Below are positions 8,038 to 19,338 of a DNA stretch of 64,000 nucleotides, piece after piece. This DNA is from Azospirillaceae bacterium (lineage in GTDB: Bacteria; Pseudomonadota; Alphaproteobacteria; Azospirillales; Azospirillaceae). Made by a program: the position numbers and the translations under genes. The DNA is taken from the NCBI GenBank assembly GCA_035645145.1, contig DASQNC010000048.1, positions 1 through 64,000 on the forward strand, in the 5' to 3' direction. Below the pieces are notes generated by a model. It had not been told where the DNA came from and made no database searches. It saw nothing but the letters and a program-made list of their open reading frames with translations. The number at the start of each line of letters is the position of its first letter. Position 1 is the first letter of the stretch.

Positions 8038-10515
8038 TCAGAACTCAATCCGCAGTGTCGCCATCGCCAGGCTTTCGGGGCGGCCGGCCCGGACGTGCCC
8101 GGCGTCGAGGCTGTGGGTGAAGCCGAGACGCAAATCCATTCCGGGCCTGAGCGGACGGGCATAAGTGGCGGTCAGATCGATTTGACGGCCGCTCGGCGCG
8201 GCATCGCCCTGGAAGCGGCCACGCTGCACGCGCCCGCTCCGGTCGCGCCCGATGGGAATGTCGAAGTGGAACTCGCCACCTTCCAACCGCAACGGTTGGG
8301 AGATCGCGAACGAGAACCGATCCCGGTCGCCGAACACACCGAGCTTCCCGACTCCGACGCCGAAGGCCGAAGTCACCAGGCCCGATCCGCCGCTCAGGAC
8401 CGATCCCGCGGCTGGCGAAAACCGCGTGAGCCCGATGGAAGCGCCCGCGGCGAGTTCGAAGCCGGCGCCGAGGTCCAAGGCCATGTGGGCGCCGACGAAG
8501 GACGTGGTCGCGTCCGCAACCGCGAACGCCCCCTGCCCGATGCCCCCCAACAGGGATCCGTCCTCGCGGACGAATCCGGCCGAAAGCCCGAATGTCACCC
8601 CTTGGCCGCCAAAGCTCAGGCCGAACGCATAGGACGAGGCTTGACTGCGCTCCGGGTCGGCAATGGGAACCGAACCGGTCGCGTAGGACGCCCGCCACGA
8701 AATTCCGCGGGTCCGGCCATCGCCGACGGCGAGTGCGAATCCGCCTTCGATCATCGCCAGATGGGCGTTCGCAAGCGGGTTGCCCACGGGCCAGTCCATC
8801 CCCGGTGCGAAGCCGGGCGCGAACCCGAGCCCGTGGTCGGGCCGCACCTGGGCTTCCACAAATGCGCCCCCCAGACCAAGCCGGACTTCACGCGTGTCTA
8901 CGCCGCCGGACGGGCCCGGCCGGAAGGAAAAGGCCATGCCGCCCCCCTCACCCGTGCGGGCCGGCGCGCGCCCGAACCGGGTGAGCCGTTCGTGCAGCCC
9001 CGGACCGGCATCCATCGCACGGCCCGCGAAGGCCCCGAGATCCACCCGGTACACACGCCCGTACCCGTCGAGTGCGGCGGCGGTGCGGCCGGCGAGCGTG
9101 GCCGCCAAGGCATCGCCCAACGCGCCGCCCGCGAGAACCCCGCTGTGGTCGACCCGGGCGCCGCCGGCGGCCGCGTCCGGGCCGGCGGCAAACACGAGGG
9201 GCCCAACCGGACGCGTCGCCCGCTCCAGGTCCACAAGGCCCCAGCCGTAGATCTCGTCGACACCGGGAGCGCCAAGATCCTGAGCCGTCTCCTTGAGGAT
9301 GCGGAGGATTTCCGGCGTGGTCAGTTCCGGGAAGAGCTGCATGAGGATGGCGACCGCGCCGGAGACGTGCGGGGCGGCCAGCGACGTGCCGGTCAAAGTC
9401 CGCATGCCGCCGTCGTGGAACGTCGATGGGATCGCGACACCGGGGGCGGCCAGGCAGAACGCCTTGGCGTCGCCGCATCGGTTGCTGCCCTCCCAGATCT
9501 GCCTGTTCCGGTCGACCGCCACCACGGCCACCCAATGGCCGGCCAGTTCCGGGATCACGACCGGCAAGCCGGCCTCCCACGCCGGGTTCGCCTGCCGGTC
9601 GTTTCCCGCCGCGAAGACGATGGCGCCATCCAGATTGGCGACGTAGCGCCCACTCTCCAGGATGCCGCCGGCCGCGAACTCCACCAGTTCGCGGGGAATG
9701 TCGCCCGCGTACCGGTTGGAGGCCCAACTGTTGTTGAACACCCGGGCGCCGGCGTCCGCACCGCGCCGCCAGGCGTCACCCACGTTGACGTAGCGTTCGC
9801 CGGGCGTGACCGTGTGATCCTCCGCCAGGATCTTGAAGGGGATCACCTGGGCGCCGAACGCCACGCCGTGCACGCCGTTACTGTTCCGGCGTGCGGCGAT
9901 GATGCCGGCGACATGGGTTCCATGGCCGATCCGGTCGCCGACCTCCGCCGTTCCATCCAGGACATTGCGCCCACCCGGGGCAACCGCGCCGGCCAGGTCC
10001 GGGTGGGTCGCGGCAATTCCGCTGTCGATGACGGCCACCTTCACCCCGGCGCCCGTGTACCCCCGCGCATAGGCGTCGGCAGCCCGGATGAGGCCAAGTC
10101 CATGCTGGGCGCGGTGTTCGTTCGTCAGATAGTCCTGCACATCGCGTCGCGGGAGCGGCGCGGCGACCGGGGGCCGCGGCGGCGGCTCCGCCTGCGGGGG
10201 CGGCTTCTGCACGACTTTACCGCCACCGCCGCCCCCGGGCGGAAGCACGGTCCCCGGCAGAATGGTGGCAAGGCCGCCCAGGACCAGGCGCCCCACCCCA
10301 GGGGACGCCGCCCGCCCCTCGGCTTGACCGGTCGTGCGCGGCGGATCGGGGGGAGCGGACCATTCCACGGCGGCCAGGATGTCGGCATAGGTCGCGGCCA
10401 ATGCCCGGATCGGGTTGTCCGGTTGGAGGTCTTGAGCGGCGTGCACAGGGTTGGGGACCGCAACCTGCATCAAGATGCAGCATCCGGACAGGCCCACCGG
10501 AAAATGGAGCCGCAC
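8038..10515 (-). CDS. Subtilisin-like (S8) serine protease autotransporter
   Basis: An 825-residue type V secreted protease. With the GTG start at 10515 (a GGGAGG lies 5 bases upstream) it begins with a signal-like segment ending near VHA. An S8 domain follows at about 125-440: Asp in VAVIDSGIAATH near residue 164, His in GHGTHVAGI near 199 and Ser in GTSLAAPHVSG near 377, so the triad is complete. The last ~260 residues form an autotransporter beta-barrel ending in an aromatic residue (LRIEF). The passenger should be displayed or released at the surface. The signal segment contains LSGC, a possible lipobox; NalP and SphB1 are lipidated relatives, but the h-region here is short. A start at 10563 would lengthen the N-terminus by 16 residues and lacks a ribosome site. 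Confidence 0.92.
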   Translation of the reverse strand: MRLHFPVGLSGCCILMQVAVPNPVHAAQDLQPDNPIRALAATYADILAAVEWSAPPDPPRTTGQAEGRAASPGVGRLVLGGLATILPGTVLPPGGGGGGKVVQKPPPQAEPPPRPPVAAPLPRRDVQDYLTNEHRAQHGLGLIRAADAYARGYTGAGVKVAVIDSGIAATHPDLAGAVAPGGRNVLDGTAEVGDRIGHGTHVAGIIAARRNSNGVHGVAFGAQVIPFKILAEDHTVTPGERYVNVGDAWRRGADAGARVFNNSWASNRYAGDIPRELVEFAAGGILESGRYVANLDGAIVFAAGNDRQANPAWEAGLPVVIPELAGHWVAVVAVDRNRQIWEGSNRCGDAKAFCLAAPGVAIPSTFHDGGMRTLTGTSLAAPHVSGAVAILMQLFPELTTPEILRILKETAQDLGAPGVDEIYGWGLVDLERATRPVGPLVFAAGPDAAAGGARVDHSGVLAGGALGDALAATLAGRTAAALDGYGRVYRVDLGAFAGRAMDAGPGLHERLTRFGRAPARTGEGGGMAFSFRPGPSGGVDTREVRLGLGGAFVEAQVRPDHGLGFAPGFAPGMDWPVGNPLANAHLAMIEGGFALAVGDGRTRGISWRASYATGSVPIADPERSQASSYAFGLSFGGQGVTFGLSAGFVREDGSLLGGIGQGAFAVADATTSFVGAHMALDLGAGFELAAGASIGLTRFSPAAGSVLSGGSGLVTSAFGVGVGKLGVFGDRDRFSFAISQPLRLEGGEFHFDIPIGRDRSGRVQRGRFQGDAAPSGRQIDLTATYARPLRPGMDLRLGFTHSLDAGHVRAGRPESLAMATLRIEF

Positions 10516-10825
10516 CGCCGCCTCCCTCTGGACGGACACACGCCCAACGCGCAGAGGGTACAACGATAAATTTCACACCGTGAAAGCGCGTATGGGAATA
10601 TCGCGCAAGCGCTAACCACCGCCGCAGTTCACACTTAGACCATACCCCTGTTAACGGGAAACCTACTTTATAGACACCAGGCCATGACCGGCGATTTTAA
10701 TCAGATCAGCTTCCCCCTCCCCCCTCTATATTTCAATTATGCACACAGACAGCCAAGCATTTCCGCCCCCGAGGGGCGACGATGGCGGATGCCGGCATGT
10801 TGACGTGCGCGGGTTGCCCCACGGA

Positions 10826-12433
10826 TCAGGCGTACCAGAGCCCATTGTCGATCAAGGCGGCATTCGCCCGCCCCTCGGGGCTCGTGGCAAGGGCATGCAG
10901 CAGTTCGGCCGGGGTCATGCCCTGCCGCAGGAGGCTGGTCCAATGGCTCCAGCCCTCGGCCTCCGGGTCACGCTCGAAGGCGCTCCGGTAAAGATGGGTG
11001 ACCAGACGCTCGGGTTCGGACGCGGGATCGGCGCCGAAACGGGCCAGGAACTCCCCCGAAGCCAGGAAGTTCGCGGCCATCGAGACCGGGTCCATCCCGT
11101 GGGCGGCGTGTTCGGCCCAGAAGCGGAGGCCCGCCTCTTCCGGGGCGCGGTCGAGCGCCGCGTTGTAGAGGCTCGTCACGAGCCCGACATGGCCCGCCGT
11201 GTCCGCACGGCCGACGGGCATGGTGGCGGCGAGAAGCCCCGGGGTGTCGTCATCGACGATGGTCCGCATCGCCCGCAGCCGTGTGTGCCCCCAGGGGAAT
11301 TCACCGCCTTTCGGATCGAAGGCTTCCAGGAAGAAGGTCTCCGGCCCTTCGGCGACCGTGTCGCCGATGACTTCCACCGGGACCACCGCCTTCGTCTCGC
11401 CCGGGTGGAGTACCAGACGGCCCGCGACGGGAATGTAATCCTGGCCGGCATGCGCGGTGCCGTCCACGGTGCGGAACTCCACGGAGCCGCCGCCGGGACC
11501 GGGATTGGAGAGTTCGACAAGGAAGTACACGAGGCGGGTGCCCGCGTTCCCTTCGGCCACCTCCCGGGCGACCTGCCCCGCGGAGGCCGGAACGCCGGGC
11601 AGGGTCGCCTGCACCGTCCTGTCGATCCACTCGGCGAAGTGGGAGACCCGCTGCGCGGAGCCCATTTCCCCGAACGAGCTGTCCAGGCGGCTGTTGATGT
11701 CCGGTTGGGCCAGCCGGTCGACAATGCGGAAAATATAGCTGGTGACCCCGGCGACCTTCCCGTCGATCAGCCACGGCCCGCCGCTGTCCCCCCGGCTGAT
11801 CAGCACCTCCTGCGCCCCCAGGCCCACATGGGGAACCCCGGCAAGCCGGCCCAGCGCATCGCGTGCCGCCGTGCCGTCGTCGAAGTCGATCGCAAGTTGC
11901 GAGCCCGGCCGCACCCACCAGCCGGCCGGCCGGGTGTTCACCACCTGATCGGTGGGGAGATCGACGGTGTTGTAGCCGAAGCGCTTGGCCGACGCCGCCG
12001 ACGCGATTTCCCCCGTCGGGCCGGTGGCCGTCATGCCGTAGCCGGCGATCATCACCGTCCGCCCGACCTCGTCGGCATCGCGGTACAAGGCGAAACGCCC
12101 GGCCTGGACCGGAGCAGGTGACGCCAACCCGAGCACGGCGATGTCCGCATTGAGCCCGGAGGTGACCACGGGCATGTGCCGGGTGGCCACCGGGATCGTG
12201 ACCGGCCCGGACGGCAGGTCGAAACGCACCGACAGGGCGGAGACGGGCGCGTCGTCGACGACATGCGCCGCCGTCAACACGTGCCGTCCGGTGGCGAGCA
12301 GCGTGCCGGACCCATAGACCGGTCCGGCACCGACCCGAACCACGCCATCGAGACCGGAGCCGGGGGGCACCTTGTAGGTGCCTGCCGTGTAGTCGGAAAC
12401 GGGGACGCTGACCATGGCCCGATGAACGCCCAT
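10826..12433 (-). CDS. Trypsin-like serine protease with Calx-beta and DUF4214 domains
   Basis: A 535-residue mosaic protein. The S1 protease domain spans about 25-245 with His57 in LTAAHV, Asp97 in LNADIAV and Ser217 in GDSGGP. A Calx-beta domain covers about 265-385 (VYFLVELSNPG, VEFRTVDGTAHAGQDY, ending IVDDD). A DUF4214 module fills about 415-525 (LYNAALDRAPEEAGLRFW; LYRSAFERDPEAEGW). There is no Sec signal peptide. Together with the extracellular domain types this suggests type I export, possibly by the T1SS at 1439-4584; this is inferred. An alternative start is Met7 at 12415. The first ~75 codons and upstream DNA are partly duplicated in the pseudogene at 14699-14977. A role in processing surface proteins (compare Caulobacter Sap) is a guess. 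Confidence 0.88.
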   Translation of the reverse strand: MGVHRAMVSVPVSDYTAGTYKVPPGSGLDGVVRVGAGPVYGSGTLLATGRHVLTAAHVVDDAPVSALSVRFDLPSGPVTIPVATRHMPVVTSGLNADIAVLGLASPAPVQAGRFALYRDADEVGRTVMIAGYGMTATGPTGEIASAASAKRFGYNTVDLPTDQVVNTRPAGWWVRPGSQLAIDFDDGTAARDALGRLAGVPHVGLGAQEVLISRGDSGGPWLIDGKVAGVTSYIFRIVDRLAQPDINSRLDSSFGEMGSAQRVSHFAEWIDRTVQATLPGVPASAGQVAREVAEGNAGTRLVYFLVELSNPGPGGGSVEFRTVDGTAHAGQDYIPVAGRLVLHPGETKAVVPVEVIGDTVAEGPETFFLEAFDPKGGEFPWGHTRLRAMRTIVDDDTPGLLAATMPVGRADTAGHVGLVTSLYNAALDRAPEEAGLRFWAEHAAHGMDPVSMAANFLASGEFLARFGADPASEPERLVTHLYRSAFERDPEAEGWSHWTSLLRQGMTPAELLHALATSPEGRANAALIDNGLWYA

Positions 12434-12456
12434 GCCGAGGCACCGCGATCATCTTA

Positions 12457-12485
12457 GCGCCGAGTCATTTACAGGTTGTTGTCGC
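12457..12485. repeat. Conserved upstream element of the protease gene, copy 1
   Basis: This stretch (AGCGCCGAG, one variable pair, then CATTTACAGGTTGTTG and CG) recurs at 14944-14972 with about two mismatches and no gap. The neighbouring duplicated coding DNA is only about 80 percent alike. It may be the protease promoter/operator or the edge of the duplicated segment. Confidence 0.6.
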
Positions 12486-12604
12486 GATGCCTGGAATGCT
12501 TCGCCAAATACCCGGAGCTCAGCAATGTTTCAATTTGGATTTGGACAGCGGCAACCCTGGATAATCTTGTGTTTTTTTGCTGCTCTCGGTTGCACTCTTG
12601 TATC

Positions 12605-12619
12605 GTATTAATTAAATAC
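12605..12619 (+). promoter_or_regulatory. AT-rich inverted repeat in the promoter region of the PAS-RadC gene
   Basis: GTATT and AATAC arms flank the 5-base centre AATTA, 19 bases before the ATG. The local sequence is unusually AT-rich for this window, with TTG-rich bases and TATCGT just upstream. Its position suggests an operator or -10 region overlapping a dyad. Confidence 0.4.
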
Positions 12620-12637
12620 AATGGCAGGAGATGACCC

Positions 12638-13843
12638 ATGAGCATGGTGGTGCGTCCGATCAAATTCCGGGCGAAGGGGATCCACGCCGAAATCGGAGGC
12701 GACGATCTGCGGGGAACGGTGTCGAAGCGCGAGTTCCCGATCGATGCAGCCCTGGATTCCGATCACCTAGCACCATTTTTGCGGCTATGGCGCGAGTATG
12801 GTTCACCCGAGTGCTTGCCGACGTTAGCGGACTTCGGTGCCCTATGGCAGGAGCCCGATGGCGTTGGCCTGCACCTAATCGAAACCAACGACGGCCCGGT
12901 CGATACTTGGCGGTTTCTACGTTTCGATGCACGGGTCGCCACTCACGGCCGGGACCTCGCTGGCACGACCCTGGGGGACTATCCCAATCCGCTGATCCGC
13001 GTCGCCTGCAACATGGATCTGCACACGGCCGCTCGTCTGAGGCGTCCATCCCTGATCGAAATCGGCGGACCGGTTGGCGGTTTCCTGCGCCTGCTGCTGC
13101 CGTTACGGGCTGATGGGCACACCGAACGGGCGCCGGTACTGCTCATGTCCATTGTCCAACTGACCCAGATCGGAGTCGGAGGCCGCCGTCCTCGCCGCGG
13201 TCGCAGCGTAGAGCATCGTCCTCCCGAGCAGATGTCGGATGCAGAACTGCTGGCGGAGGCAATCGGATCCGAGTTACCGTCGGCTGCGGCCCATGCCCTG
13301 GCGATACGCCTGCTGGAAACGTTCGGGACAGCCGCCGGTGTCCTGCAAACCCGCACGGATGCATTCCTGCGCGTACCGGGCGCAAGCAGAAGAATTCACG
13401 TGCGTCTCCGGGCAGCGGCCGAACTCGGGCGGCGCAGTGTACCGGTTGGCAGCAACGCCTGCGCCGTTTTCCTGCAGAGGAAGGCGCTGATCGATCACGT
13501 CGTCCAGCGGATCAGCGGTCAACCGACCGAAGAGCTATGGGTCTTCCACTTCGACACGCGCGATCGATTGGTCCGTCAGGAACGCCATTCCAAGGGCACT
13601 GTCGACTACGTGCAATTTTTCAACCGCGAGCTTGTCGCCTCTATCCTCGACAGCGGGGCAACATCCATCATTCTGGCGCATAACCACCCCAGCGGTATTC
13701 CCGAGCCCAGCCGCGAGGATGTGGTCAACACCAATCATGCCGCGGAGTACCTGATACGGCTCCGTGTGCATCTGAAGGACCACATCATCGTCGGCGGGGG
13801 CAGCTACGTCAGTCTGCGCGAGCGTGGCGTCCTGAAATACTGA
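12638..13843 (+). CDS. PAS_5-like domain fused to a RadC (HhH-JAMM) protein
   Basis: A 401-residue fusion. Residues ~40-175 resemble the PAS_5 domain common in Alphaproteobacteria: HLAPFLRLWREYG, then FDARVATHGRDLAGTTLGDYP, then RLLLPLRADG. Residues ~195-268 form the RadC helix-hairpin-helix region (MSDAELLAEAIG; FLRVPGASRR). Residues ~285-401 are the RadC MPN/JAMM domain with Glu299, His348-x-His350, Ser358 and Asp361, so the metal-binding and catalytic set (HNHPSG, PSREDV) is complete. RadC proteins are predicted Zn-dependent isopeptidase-like or nuclease-like enzymes whose role is unsettled; the old DNA-repair assignment was withdrawn. AGGAG lies 7 bases before the ATG. The gene is convergent with a GNAT-like gene, and the pair sits between an intact protease gene and a fragment of its copy. 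Confidence 0.85.
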   Translation: MSMVVRPIKFRAKGIHAEIGGDDLRGTVSKREFPIDAALDSDHLAPFLRLWREYGSPECLPTLADFGALWQEPDGVGLHLIETNDGPVDTWRFLRFDARVATHGRDLAGTTLGDYPNPLIRVACNMDLHTAARLRRPSLIEIGGPVGGFLRLLLPLRADGHTERAPVLLMSIVQLTQIGVGGRRPRRGRSVEHRPPEQMSDAELLAEAIGSELPSAAAHALAIRLLETFGTAAGVLQTRTDAFLRVPGASRRIHVRLRAAAELGRRSVPVGSNACAVFLQRKALIDHVVQRISGQPTEELWVFHFDTRDRLVRQERHSKGTVDYVQFFNRELVASILDSGATSIILAHNHPSGIPEPSREDVVNTNHAAEYLIRLRVHLKDHIIVGGGSYVSLRERGVLKY

Positions 13844-13864
13844 GCCGGAGCTCAAACATTCGGA

Positions 13865-14644
13865 TCAACGCAGCTTGGCCAGACTCCACTCAGCGGAAGG
13901 TTCGGGAAACGCCCCGGAGGATCGCAATTCGCGCAGCAACTTCTCGAAGTCAGAACCGATCCGGTACCGCCGATCTGCCGCGAGCAGTGCGCCATCCTCG
14001 GCGAACTGGCGCGGGATTGCATCGCCGGATCGACTGACAAGCACCAAGTCCTGTGGCGGGTGCCCGGGGATCATATATTGCCGAGCGAACATGTCCTGGC
14101 GTTCGAACCCTTGTGAGTAGAGCGGCAGCAGCGATGAGGCCATGCCGGGGTAGACGAAGCCGAAATCGTAGTCATGCGCCCACCGGTCTGCGGCGAGTGC
14201 ACGGGTCAAGCGCGCCAGGAACCAGGTTATTCCCAGGCCTCGGTGGTCCGGTGAGATCCAGCCTGCGCCCAGATACACGAAACAGCCATTGGGAACAGGG
14301 ACGTCGGGCGCGACGACAATGTCGAGTGGACGGTGGCAAGTGAAGGTGTCCCCATACCAGAACCGGTACGAGCGCGTTAGATCCAGCAGGTCGCCCTCGA
14401 CCAGTCGAGCGGCGCCGAAAGCCACTGTATTGCGGTTGCGATCAAAGAGACGGACCCAGAAGCAGCGGCCCGGACCAACCGCATCGCCGTGCAGCAGCGG
14501 GTCGAATTCCGGGTTGCCCCACTTCTTGTTGCTGATGCGGACAATGGCGTCCAGCAGGCCGCCGATATCCTGTTCGATTTCGACGGCGTATTCGGCGTCG
14601 TTGAAGGCGTCGACCAATTGGTTAGCAAAGGTGATGGCAGACAC
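13865..14644 (-). CDS. GNAT-like N-acyltransferase of unknown specificity
   Basis: A 259-residue protein with a recognisable acetyltransferase core: a beta strand (CFVYLGAGWI, about 121-130) followed by SPDHRGLGITWFLARLTRAL (about 131-150). The RGLG turn is the acyl-CoA pyrophosphate-binding motif A. The N-terminal ~110 residues contain a WVRLFDRNRNTVAFGAARLV strand pair seen in larger GNAT proteins. No membrane segments are present. Substrate unknown; the length is closer to large N-acyl amino acid synthase-type GNATs than to small antibiotic acetylases, but I cannot be specific. It converges on the PAS-RadC gene with 21 bp between stop codons. Its start at 14644 follows AGGAGAC-like bases on the minus strand. 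Confidence 0.65.
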   Translation of the reverse strand: MSAITFANQLVDAFNDAEYAVEIEQDIGGLLDAIVRISNKKWGNPEFDPLLHGDAVGPGRCFWVRLFDRNRNTVAFGAARLVEGDLLDLTRSYRFWYGDTFTCHRPLDIVVAPDVPVPNGCFVYLGAGWISPDHRGLGITWFLARLTRALAADRWAHDYDFGFVYPGMASSLLPLYSQGFERQDMFARQYMIPGHPPQDLVLVSRSGDAIPRQFAEDGALLAADRRYRIGSDFEKLLRELRSSGAFPEPSAEWSLAKLR

Positions 14645-14698
14645 GAGGTGTCTCCTCCTATTGGGTGTGGAAGAGACATCTGTACTAAGAGATCCTGC

Positions 14699-14977
14699 TT
14701 AGGCTGTAGTCCACATCAGGCAGGCGCCTGCACACAGTCGCGCGCTACGGCAGGTGGAAGCGCACGGACAGAACGGAACAGGAACGTCATCGACGGCATG
14801 CGCCACGGCGAGCACCTGCCGCCCGGTGGCGAGCAGCGTGCCGACCCCGTAGACCGGGCAGGTGCCGACCCGCACCACGCCATCGAGACCGGATCCAGCG
14901 GCCTCTTTGTAGGTGGTTGCCGTGGGGTCGGAAACGGGAATGTCAGCGCCGAGGCATTTACAGGTTGTTGCCGTCAC
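14699..14977 (-). pseudogene. Degenerate partial copy of the trypsin-like protease 5' end
   Basis: The frame reads ...IPVSDPTATTYKEAAGSGL then DGVVRVGTCPVYGVGTLLATGR, clearly matching residues ~9-50 of the intact protease at 10826-12433. It then loses the frame: the catalytic His is still visible in AVAHAVDD, after which the reading becomes Cys-rich nonsense and stops. At DNA level 14750-14972 aligns with 12209-12485 at roughly 80 percent with several small indels and a deletion of about 45 bases around the start. The upstream AGCGCCGAG..CATTTACAGG element is retained. No Asp or Ser region remains, so it cannot encode a protease. Confidence 0.85.
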
Positions 14978-14995: not shown

Positions 14996-16516
14996 TCATG
15001 CGATACCGAGTTGCCGGTATAGTGGCAGCCACTGGGTCCGGAACACCTCAGCACGCGCACGGAGCTCGGCGATGTTTTCCCCGGGGCTCTCAAGCGCCTT
15101 GCCGTCCCTGGTAAGTCTTTCGTCCTGCTTATCCAAGACCTGCCAAGTGAATTCGGCCGGATCCGCGTTCCCCTGCATCGCCAACAGGAAAAGCTGGTGG
15201 AAGCGGTTAACGTTTATGCCGCCGCCCGTTACGGGAGACGCCAGGAACATGAGTTGATCGGAATAGCGGGCGGCATTCATGACAGCGGCGTTGAAGGCGC
15301 GCGTTCCGGCAACCCGATCCGCCTCACCGGTCTCCGGGAGGCATGGTTCGACCTGCCTCATTGCCGCCAGCACCGTTACCGCCTGCACGAAGGACGGGAA
15401 GCCGACCGCCCTGACGCTATCCATGGCAAGAAGTTCGCCCAATGTCGCGGGCCCCTTTGCCAGGGCGTACAGAACGGGCCCGTAGGTTTCCTCGCGGAGC
15501 TTCACATCGCCCAGGGCGAAGGTTGCCTCCAGCGGTACCAAGGCACGAGGCGCCACCAGGACGAAGCGGGTTTTGAGCAGGAGTTCGGCCTTCTCCTGAG
15601 CGGACAGCCGGACCGCGCCCTTGACGAAGATGTCCTTGCGGAACTTCTGGTTCAGAAAATAGTCCCGAACTGTTTCCCGGAACAGGACATCGTCGATTTC
15701 CGCCAGCATTTTTTGCGCGTCGGACGTCAGGTTGACCACGTCCACATGGTCCGCGGGGTTGGCGGAGGCAGCGAAGCTCAGCTTGGCACCGCCCAATTCG
15801 CGTGCGACTTCGGCGAAATACTTCGGTGTCCAATCCCGGTTCAAGTATTCGTGCACGAGATAAGCCGATGGCTGCCTCTTCAGGAGTTCCAGACGGGCGG
15901 CAACGCCGGGGTTTTGGGCGAAGTAGCCGGCCTTCATCTCGACAAGCCGGTCGGCAAACGCAATCCCCTGCCGCACCTGCTGAACTCGGCTTTCCCGGGC
16001 CGTGGCGCCATATTCGGCCATGAGCTGGCGCAACGGCATGGCGGCCGACCAGCCCGGCAGGCAATTGTAGCCGATGTACACCGCACCGCCCGGCTTGAGC
16101 TTGCGGCGGATGATTTCGACGATGGCCGCCCGGTTCTCGGGGCTGACCCACGAATAGATCCCGTGCAGCACGATCAGGTCGAACTCCGGCGTCTCGAGAT
16201 CCCGGAATTCGGCGAAGCTTTTGTCGTAGAACCTCACATTGCCCGTTCCCGCCGACATCGCGAGCTGGCTGGCACCTGCGGCGTGGGATGGGTTGAAGTC
16301 GGTCGCCCAGAAATCGCCCTGGGGATTGGCGGCGGCGATCAGATTGGTGCTGAAGCCCTGGCCGAAACCGAGTTCGCAGTAAGAGAAGGAGGACAGCGGG
16401 GGCGGCCGGAGGCCTTTGAGAAGGATGCAGAAGGCCAGAAAACCCGGCGTCAGTTCGCGATAGAAACCATGCGTATAGTCGATGTCCGTAACGTAACCAT
16501 CGCTCCAGTCGCTCAT
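14996..16516 (-). CDS. Class I SAM-dependent methyltransferase with methyltransferase regulatory domain
   Basis: A 506-residue protein. The N-terminal Rossmann domain (about 20-190) has the SAM-binding glycine motif in YCELGFGQGFSTNL (about 46-59), the acidic strand FWATDFNP and a FDLIVLHGIYSWVS motif IV. Residues ~215-300 fit the methyltransferase regulatory domain (PF10119-like: YLVHEYLNRDWTPKYF), and the C-terminal half is the helical extension of that family. Substrate unknown. I start it at the ATG at 16516 (MSDWSDGY), preceded by GAGGGGG, rather than the ATG at 16528. It lies upstream of the protease remnant and downstream of the surface-layer gene, all on the minus strand but separated by a terminator. 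Modification of a surface glycan is possible. Confidence 0.85.
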   Translation of the reverse strand: MSDWSDGYVTDIDYTHGFYRELTPGFLAFCILLKGLRPPPLSSFSYCELGFGQGFSTNLIAAANPQGDFWATDFNPSHAAGASQLAMSAGTGNVRFYDKSFAEFRDLETPEFDLIVLHGIYSWVSPENRAAIVEIIRRKLKPGGAVYIGYNCLPGWSAAMPLRQLMAEYGATARESRVQQVRQGIAFADRLVEMKAGYFAQNPGVAARLELLKRQPSAYLVHEYLNRDWTPKYFAEVARELGGAKLSFAASANPADHVDVVNLTSDAQKMLAEIDDVLFRETVRDYFLNQKFRKDIFVKGAVRLSAQEKAELLLKTRFVLVAPRALVPLEATFALGDVKLREETYGPVLYALAKGPATLGELLAMDSVRAVGFPSFVQAVTVLAAMRQVEPCLPETGEADRVAGTRAFNAAVMNAARYSDQLMFLASPVTGGGINVNRFHQLFLLAMQGNADPAEFTWQVLDKQDERLTRDGKALESPGENIAELRARAEVFRTQWLPLYRQLGIA

Positions 16517-16642
16517 AAGCCCCCTCATTCAGAACCCCCGGACAATCCCCCAGATAAGGCTACAAGCTCATTAAAGACAAGGTGTTCGACCCAGCCTGCC
16601 TCTTTGCCGTGGACACACCGGGCGCGAGCGGCCCCTTAAAGC

Positions 16643-16734: not shown

Positions 16735-19338
16735 TTACATGACGTAGAACTGGTCGGTCCCGACTTCGCCCAGCTTCGTGATGCCGGTCAGGCCGGTCAG
16801 CTCCACCACGAGGTCCTGAGTGCCGTTCTGGACGAACAGGTAGCTGTTGGCACCGTACTGGAACACCACGGCGTTGCCAAGGGTGACATCGCTGTTGATC
16901 TCGGCGATGGCGTCGCTGAGGCTGCCCGGGGCAGCCAACAGGGTCGAGAAGCTGACCACACCGTCGGTGATCTTGACGTCCGTGGTCGTACCCGCCGCGT
17001 TGGCGGCAACCGCGTAGCCCACCCCCGCGATATCATCCACGAACACGAGGTCGTAGCCCTTACCGGCGGCCAGCTCCTCCGCAGTGGCCTTGTTGAAGCC
17101 GATGAGCTTGTCCGGAGCCGAGGCGGCCGACGGGGAGGTCCCGGTGCCGCTGTCGACGGTCGCGGTGATCACGTCGTCGCCGCCACCCAGCTTGACGGTC
17201 AGCTGGCTGTTGGTCGCCGCCAGGTCGAGCTTCAATGCGCCGGTCATGCCGGACGCATCGACTTCCTTCAGCACGTCCGACTCCATCGTGCCGGTCTTGT
17301 ACACCTTGGTCACCGTCAGGGCCTTGTCGCCGGTGACCACCAGCTTCTCGGCCTTATCGGACACCAGCGCCGTCAGCTCGTTGCTGATGTTCTTGCCGCC
17401 GCCCGACACGATGTTGACGGTCTCGATCCCGTTCAGGGTGAGGCTGGCCGCCGTGATGGTCGATGCGGCCGCCGCATCGGCCCCGGCGAACGTCACCGTG
17501 AAGGTGTCGGTCTTGCTGTCGGCGGCGCTGGCGCCCTTCTGGACGACCGTCAGGCCGTGGGCATCGCTGCCGGTGATGTCCAGGCCGATCCCCTTGGCGA
17601 CGTTCTCGATCGCCGCGTTGACGCTGCCGCTGTTGCCCGACAGCACCAGCTTGCCGATGGTGTTGCTGGAGCCGATCAGCTCCGCATCGAACGTGCGGCC
17701 GCCGAGGCCGACGAGGTCGACGTTCTCGAAGTTCTTGAACGCTGCCCCGTTGGAAACGTTGACCAGCGCAACGGCCAGGGTGTCGGTGCCCGCGCCGCCG
17801 TCCACGACGGCGTCGACGTTCACCGCACCGGTGCCCACGATGGAGTCGTTGCCATCGCCCAGCTCGATGACCGCGCCCTTGGCGACGGCGTTGCTGGCGA
17901 TGTTGAGCTTGTCGTCGCCCAGGCCGAGGCGGACGAAGCCCTTGTCGGCCAGCGCGGCGCCCAGCGTGATGCTGTCCTTGCCCGCACCGGTGGTGACTTC
18001 CTGCAGAGCGGCACTGCCGGTGGCGGTGACCCCGCCGGCAGCGGCCGTGGCCGTCAGGGTCTTCACCGCGGCGCCCAGGATGTTGAGGTTCGCCTTGCCC
18101 GGACCGGTGACGTTCACCTTCGTGGCGGCGGTGAAATTGTCGACGTCAAGCGCAAGCGCGGCGTTGGCGGTGACGTTGATGGTCTTGACGGTTTTGACAG
18201 CGGCGCCCTCGAGGATCTCGATGGTGTCCGCCGTACCGCCGGTGACCTTGCTGGAACCGGCGACGTTCAGCGTCTCCAGTGCGGCGCCATCGACGGTCAG
18301 CGTGCCGTCGGTCGCACCGGCTTCCAGGGATGCGTTGTTCAGCGAGACCGACGCGACCTTCGCCGTCGCGGCGTACTCGGCCGTGACGTCCGCCTTGGTC
18401 GTCGAATTGACGGCCGAGGTCCCCTTCAGGCCGAAGGTCTGGCCCTCGGCGAGGCCGGTCACGGTCGCGCCGTCGACCACGTTGCTTGCCAGCGTGATGG
18501 TCTTGGCGCCGTCGAACGCCGCGACACCCAGCTTGTCGGTGACGTCGAAGCCGCCGGTGAGGTTGGTGACGACGATGTTCTCGACGCTCTTGGTCTCGAA
18601 CCCGGCCGGCAGGACCTTTGCCGTCGCGATGATCTCGAGGGTGTCGGTGCCGCCGCCGCCGTCGACCACGTCGCCGGTGTTCAGCGTGGCCCCGGCCCCG
18701 CCGAGCACGGCCTTGATGGTGTCGTTGTTGGCGGTGCCGGTGACCTGCTCGCCAACCTTGTCGGTCAGGGTGAAGGTCTGGCCCGGCGTGCCGCCGTTGC
18801 CGCCGGCGGCGACGGTGGCCGCGACCTGCGTGGCGACCACGGCCTTGGCGGCGTCGCGCGAGGCCTCGGTGGCGCCGACGGTGGCCAGGAACTCGCGGGC
18901 GACCTGGGCGGCGGCGGCGCCAGCATAGCCCAGGATCTCAGGCGTGGTGTCGACCTCGGCGGTGAACGCCTGGGCCACTTCCACCTTGTTGGCCATCACC
19001 TTGGCGTCGTCGCCCTGGGCGCCGTTGGCCATGGTGAAGGCGATGTTGCCGACGTTCACCGTGCCCCTGGACAGCGCGTCGACCCAGAACTCCAGACCGG
19101 CCTTCTCGGCGTCGCGGCCGAACAGGTTGTTGTAGAGCTGGTTGACGATCTGCGCGTTGTTCAGGCCGGCGTACAGGTCCCTGTACTCCTGCGAGGCGCT
19201 GAAGGCGTTGATGACGGCAGCGAGGTTGCCGCCGTTGTCGGCGACCTGCTTCTCCCACCAGGCCAGACCGAGCGGATCGGCGGGGCGGTTGAAGAACGCA
19301 ATGTAGGCCTTCTGAATGGCAGCGGTGTGAGTCGTCAT
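16735..19338 (-). CDS. RsaA-like surface-layer protein with N-terminal DUF4214 and RTX-type repeats
   Basis: An 867-residue Ala/Thr/Val/Gly-rich protein with almost no Cys. Residues ~1-135 are a DUF4214 module (YIAFFNRPADPLGLAWWEKQ; LYNNLFGRDAEKAGLEFWV). The rest is beta-rich, with TGTANNDTI and scattered Ca-binding RTX-like turns (GAGKDSITLG, GLGDDKLNIA, GDGNDSIVG, GGGDDVITA). The C-terminal segment (VFQYGANSYLFVQNG then LVVELTGL) resembles the type I secretion region of Caulobacter RsaA. It has no Sec signal, which fits export by the T1SS at 1439-4584. As an abundant S-layer subunit it would coat the cell and anchor to LPS made by the neighbouring O-antigen genes; that role is inferred. It has its own promoter and terminator, as expected for a highly expressed single gene. 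Confidence 0.85.
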   Translation of the reverse strand: MTTHTAAIQKAYIAFFNRPADPLGLAWWEKQVADNGGNLAAVINAFSASQEYRDLYAGLNNAQIVNQLYNNLFGRDAEKAGLEFWVDALSRGTVNVGNIAFTMANGAQGDDAKVMANKVEVAQAFTAEVDTTPEILGYAGAAAAQVAREFLATVGATEASRDAAKAVVATQVAATVAAGGNGGTPGQTFTLTDKVGEQVTGTANNDTIKAVLGGAGATLNTGDVVDGGGGTDTLEIIATAKVLPAGFETKSVENIVVTNLTGGFDVTDKLGVAAFDGAKTITLASNVVDGATVTGLAEGQTFGLKGTSAVNSTTKADVTAEYAATAKVASVSLNNASLEAGATDGTLTVDGAALETLNVAGSSKVTGGTADTIEILEGAAVKTVKTINVTANAALALDVDNFTAATKVNVTGPGKANLNILGAAVKTLTATAAAGGVTATGSAALQEVTTGAGKDSITLGAALADKGFVRLGLGDDKLNIASNAVAKGAVIELGDGNDSIVGTGAVNVDAVVDGGAGTDTLAVALVNVSNGAAFKNFENVDLVGLGGRTFDAELIGSSNTIGKLVLSGNSGSVNAAIENVAKGIGLDITGSDAHGLTVVQKGASAADSKTDTFTVTFAGADAAAASTITAASLTLNGIETVNIVSGGGKNISNELTALVSDKAEKLVVTGDKALTVTKVYKTGTMESDVLKEVDASGMTGALKLDLAATNSQLTVKLGGGDDVITATVDSGTGTSPSAASAPDKLIGFNKATAEELAAGKGYDLVFVDDIAGVGYAVAANAAGTTTDVKITDGVVSFSTLLAAPGSLSDAIAEINSDVTLGNAVVFQYGANSYLFVQNGTQDLVVELTGLTGITKLGEVGTDQFYVM

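Follow-up and report, generated by a model that had tools for sequence, protein, structure and literature searches.

Whether RadC proteins can be placed under the control of a signal received within the same polypeptide is raised by a gene of an Azospirillaceae bacterium (GCA_035645145.1), found on contig DASQNC010000048.1, positions 1 to 64,000 of the forward strand (this 64,000-nucleotide stretch is hereafter the window). RadC is very widespread among bacteria, but what it acts on and what it does are unsettled, and its DNA-repair name is disputed; radC mutants are cited as normal in their DNA-damage sensitivity (PMC11981726). A natural fusion of RadC to a regulatory domain would hint that its activity can come under signal control.

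Integrity of the fusion gene

The original prediction, made by reading the DNA, had described an open reading frame in which a PAS_5-like domain precedes RadC, and the sequence bears out that frame together with its start signal:

12624..12630 (approximate), plus strand: Shine-Dalgarno-like AGGAGAT ahead of the ATG, read off the sequence
12638..13843, plus strand: PAS_5-like-HhH-RadC fusion gene, 401 aa, with uniform codon-position composition across the ORF

All 401 codons are free of stops, and the GC content by codon position is 0.69/0.47/0.71 in the first part of the ORF and 0.69/0.45/0.72 in the second. Codon log-odds prefer the frame of the gene in both halves and all along the ORF, its codon bias resembles that of neighbouring genes, and neither frame nor composition shifts at the domain junction. 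The lack of a compositional seam makes a frameshift or the artefactual joining of two genes unlikely. Such an error, whether of sequencing or of assembly, had been raised in advance as a possible undoing of the fusion, and would agree with the draft state of the genome (74 contigs) and with the lack of the fusion in any second genome. However, the open frame runs on unbroken, carries a single codon bias and follows a good ribosome-binding site; by eye, no second such site is obvious ahead of the RadC half, and the locus lies inside a 117.5-kb contig, distant from its ends. No artefact is apparent, and we consider one extremely unlikely. The gene is thus predicted to be genuine and intact and to encode a two-module protein, which is probably cytosolic.

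The N-terminal domain is related to PAS_5

The N-terminal module and the segment that follows it were delimited as follows:

12758..13126, plus strand: PAS_5-like domain, residues 41-163 (hhalign, profile score against controls, alignment)
13127..13222, plus strand: residues 164-195, comprising the last stretch of the PAS-like part plus the basic linker GGRRPRRGRS (alignments, low-confidence model)

Of the two Pfam families that had been proposed for this protein, PF04002 was recovered in the C-terminal half (E 6e-30), while neither PF07310 nor any other Pfam family matches the N-terminal half, even at E 10; for this reason we call the domain PAS_5-like. Its affinity emerges from comparison with relatives. 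The N-terminus matches a PAS_5 protein encoded on contig C16 of the same genome (E 0.0026), which is itself recognised by PF07310 (E 1.6e-10), and a locus in a family relative (E 2.8e-4) that reads as PAS_5-type sequence. When 34 PAS_5 proteins of the host genome and its relatives were made into a profile, it gave the domain 21.4 bits; the highest control scores were 7.1 bits among 2000 shuffles of the domain and 7.6 bits among 2468 fragments of real ORFs taken from DNA elsewhere. Furthermore, hhalign against PAS_5 gives 92.4% across 121 columns (residues 41-163), against a maximum of 1.1% among 150 control pieces. Both values lie far above their controls and support the proposed placement of a PAS_5-like domain before RadC.

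The alignment with PAS_5 proteins (PF07310), for example Caulobacter MopJ, is collinear, and the conserved W, P, G and LLPL positions coincide. Several other consensus positions are lost, the RxDxDP and RLxGT motifs being altered. The domain is thus supported as PAS_5-like but diverged, and the altered part could be a relic. It also differs from its relatives in setting, standing alone in MopJ and its orthologues (PMC4432633) whereas here it is attached to an enzyme and escapes recognition by Pfam. The assignment rests on sequence homology, since structure prediction left the PAS part, for which a five-stranded fold would be expected, unmodelled: a single-sequence prediction of the whole protein had a mean pLDDT of 31, and the N-terminal part stayed below 50 both there and in a prediction from an alignment with RadC relatives and no PAS_5 relatives. 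Matches of the PAS_5 profile to PDB sequences were weak (the best being the LOV protein EL222, E 0.47) and are not used as evidence.

A diverged RadC with a complete JAMM motif

The second module consists of two parts:

13220..13444, plus strand: UPF0758_N/helix-hairpin-helix-like part, residues 195-269 (PF20582 below its cut-off, model, alignments)
13481..13828, plus strand: RadC JAMM/JAB domain, residues 282-397 (PF04002, model against 2qlc, invariant columns)

The PF04002 match to residues 282-397 scores 104 bits against a cut-off of 22.1. The JAMM motif, E-Xn-H-x-H-x7-S-x2-D, is complete, and its residues are invariant across aligned RadC relatives. All of them are therefore intact, as the original prediction had it; His348, His350, Ser358 and Asp361 stand where it placed them, and only the glutamate was off by one, the invariant residue being Glu298 rather than Glu299. 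The RadC half is about 30-36% identical to any relative, and the retention of every JAMM residue at this distance argues that the catalytic site is under selection. The argument covers the catalytic part and not the pairing of PAS_5 with RadC, of which there is one example.

In the helix-hairpin-helix (HhH)-like part, PF20582 (UPF0758_N) reaches 18.8 bits on residues 195-269, under its cut-off of 27.1, and the hairpin is degenerate, its second Gly being replaced (GAS). Aligned to RadC relatives for modelling, the RadC half is well predicted, most blocks reaching pLDDT 85-95, and structure comparisons covered this half alone. The model matches the RadC structure 2qlc with Z 18.6 and rmsd 2.1 over 122 residues, and other JAMM structures follow at Z of about 8-11 (BubCD 11.1, PfJAMM1 10.2, CBASS Cap3 8.4). 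The modelled HhH-like part resembles the Hef HhH structure 1x2i with Z 7.8 and rmsd 3.7 over 67 residues.

In its order of parts, an HhH-like region followed by a JAMM domain, the protein agrees with the RadC family (UPF0758; PF04002, TIGR00608; 2qlc), and differs from it by an additional N-terminal domain, PAS_5-like and about 125 residues long. It also remains under the NCBIfam cut-offs, with 144.9 of 180 bits for the equivalog NF000642 and 128.8 of 133.85 for the subfamily TIGR00608, and is thus a RadC relative that is not filed as an ordinary RadC. A further difference is that it is a second copy. RadC is present in 241 of 289 class genomes, and the host carries a separate ordinary RadC in a 266-codon open frame on contig C25, which in the tree groups with the RadC of the sister genome, within the family clade. 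The fused RadC falls outside the housekeeping clade of the class, on a terminal branch of 2.71 substitutions per site, so long that its placement is unsure. The housekeeping copy on C25 leaves the fused one free to specialise; the long branch is consistent both with relaxed constraint and with specialisation.

What the JAMM site would act upon bears on the two functions first offered for the gene, those of a signal-controlled isopeptidase or nuclease; the isopeptidase would cleave a ubiquitin-like modifier. The predicted JAMM/MPN+ fold of the RadC half, with its matches to PfJAMM1, BubCD and Cap3, is in keeping with isopeptidase activity. On the other hand, PADLOC finds no defence-protein match for the fusion gene or for the GNAT-like gene beside it, and the Pfam matches of close neighbours include nothing that indicates a ubiquitin-like protein, E1 or E2. 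PMC5512222 argues, moreover, that RadC JAB domains, which occur in nucleic-acid contexts, probably lack a groove in which a ubiquitin tail could lie and are likely to process nucleic acids or nucleotides. By this published reasoning an isopeptidase is less likely than an enzyme of nucleic-acid processing, and we regard it as very unlikely.

Distribution of the fusion

The fusion had been expected to recur. A full-length search of 82 Azospirillaceae genomes, which make up the whole order in the genome sample searched, however, showed the PAS_5-RadC architecture in the host and in none of the other 81. It was not found elsewhere among about 385 class genomes, again by full-length search, nor among 398 phylum genomes searched with a chimeric profile, in which PAS_5 and RadC sequences were joined artificially to favour fusions (the family, class and phylum samples overlap). 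Matches of this profile in genomes G809 and G520, starting at profile positions 88-137, are ordinary RadC N-termini by eye. In a scan of genome contigs with the fusion protein, the matches fell in its RadC part and began no earlier than residue 145, and none of 72,556 plasmids and 50,697 phage records covers 80% of the protein. The RadC of a Palleronia plasmid has an N-terminus of 120 residues that is not PAS_5-like by eye.

About 100 other PAS_5 matches, in 59 genomes, were also considered, part of them by reading, and no RadC fusion was seen. The open frames at these matches are either too short for RadC or long through spurious upstream frames in high-GC DNA, and the long ones were rejected as fusions. 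The gene is thus a singleton across the genomes, plasmids and phages searched; as these are samples, the fusion may exist in other genomes. Within the material searched it is a new predicted domain architecture for both the RadC and the PAS_5 families (n = 1), and as a single example it carries limited weight, as a one-off clue and no established system. Larger proteins in which the RadC JAB domain is one module among several, as it is here, have been described (PMC11981726, PMC5512222). According to the available text of these two papers the partners are a helicase, ArdC-N, HhH and others; a PAS-type partner was found neither there nor by a full-text literature search.

Possible role of the PAS_5-like domain

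A signal-controlled RadC is a plausible hypothesis. The protein consists of a diverged PAS_5-type domain, which is probably regulatory, a short basic linker and a second, fast-evolving RadC with HhH and JAMM metallohydrolase parts; this anatomy is shown by the sequence, and gating and substrate are inferred. The PAS_5 module may sense a small molecule or, like the stand-alone regulator MopJ with its partners (PMC4432633), bind another protein, and would thereby gate or direct the zinc JAMM site in cis; nucleic acid or nucleotides, and not ubiquitin-like tails, would be the probable substrates of that site. In its most novel form, this proposal describes a RadC that, for the first time, carries its own signal-input domain: binding of a ligand or partner to the PAS_5 module would turn the metallohydrolase on or off. 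We regard this form of the proposal as unlikely. If true, it would offer a handle on the RadC substrate, to which a search for ligands or partners of this compact protein could lead.

The domain might instead act in targeting or scaffolding, recruiting RadC to a site or a partner without ligand sensing. MopJ, one well-studied PAS_5 protein, provides a precedent, as it localises to the poles and there regulates cell-cycle proteins (PMC4432633). Nevertheless, MopJ acts as a stand-alone protein without an effector domain, and a partner for the fusion is hypothetical. We judge this role distinctly unlikely.

A probable insert between two protease 5' ends

The fusion gene shares its surroundings with the following features:

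12211..12484, minus strand: left repeat copy, comprising the promoter and 5' end of an intact trypsin/Calx-beta/DUF4214 gene (direct repeat, Pfam)
13865..14644, minus strand: gene for a GNAT-like protein (259 aa, GNAT motif by eye), in convergent orientation to the fusion gene
14747..14973, minus strand: right repeat copy, in which the protease 5' end survives as a truncated remnant with 81-88% identity (direct repeat)

The fusion and GNAT-like genes fill a 2.3-kb stretch (12485-14700) between the copies of this direct repeat of about 260 bp, which is present in the host genome in these two copies only. The GNAT-like protein has no Pfam match, and its gene has no relative in the 81 other family genomes. 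Its family is scattered, being found in 31 of 385 class genomes including the host, with distant relatives in the 30 others. The absence of both genes from the 81 family genomes, together with the flanking repeat copies, suggests that the two were acquired together, as an insert in a duplicated protease locus. The GNAT-like neighbour was considered as a functional partner of the fusion, and no conserved pairing could be shown. Two close-by copies of GNAT-like relatives occur in genomes G394 and G164, and their genus also holds the best-matching RadC proteins of the class. An Rfam search gave no match.

A locus of this kind might also harbour a chance fusion, lying in an acquired and eroding stretch with little or no expression, its PAS_5-like part having no role for RadC. 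The adjoining truncated remnant would fit such a history, as would the altered PAS_5 and HhH consensus positions, the extreme divergence of the fused RadC and its singleton status in all searches. Against it stand the stop-free frame, the neighbour-like codon bias, the ribosome-binding site and the retention of every JAMM residue at about 30% overall identity; a chance fusion of this kind is, we consider, somewhat unlikely. Our preferred reading is that of an acquired and expressed two-module protein, in which the PAS_5-like module would gate or direct a diverged RadC metallohydrolase, and whose gene most likely entered the lineage along with the GNAT-like gene, into the duplicated protease locus. 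Taken as a whole it is tentative and falls just short of an even chance.

The neighbourhood has some further features. The intact protease (10826-12433) ends in DUF4214, and a large DUF4214 protein of repetitive sequence, which is probably secreted and exposed at the surface, is encoded at 16735-19338 on the minus strand. A gene for a SAM methyltransferase with a MethyTransf_Reg domain (14996-16528, minus strand) adjoins the putative insert. On the other side of the insert, a subtilase gene (8038-10563, minus strand) encodes a long C-terminal part that resembles an autotransporter barrel, with phenylalanine as the final residue.
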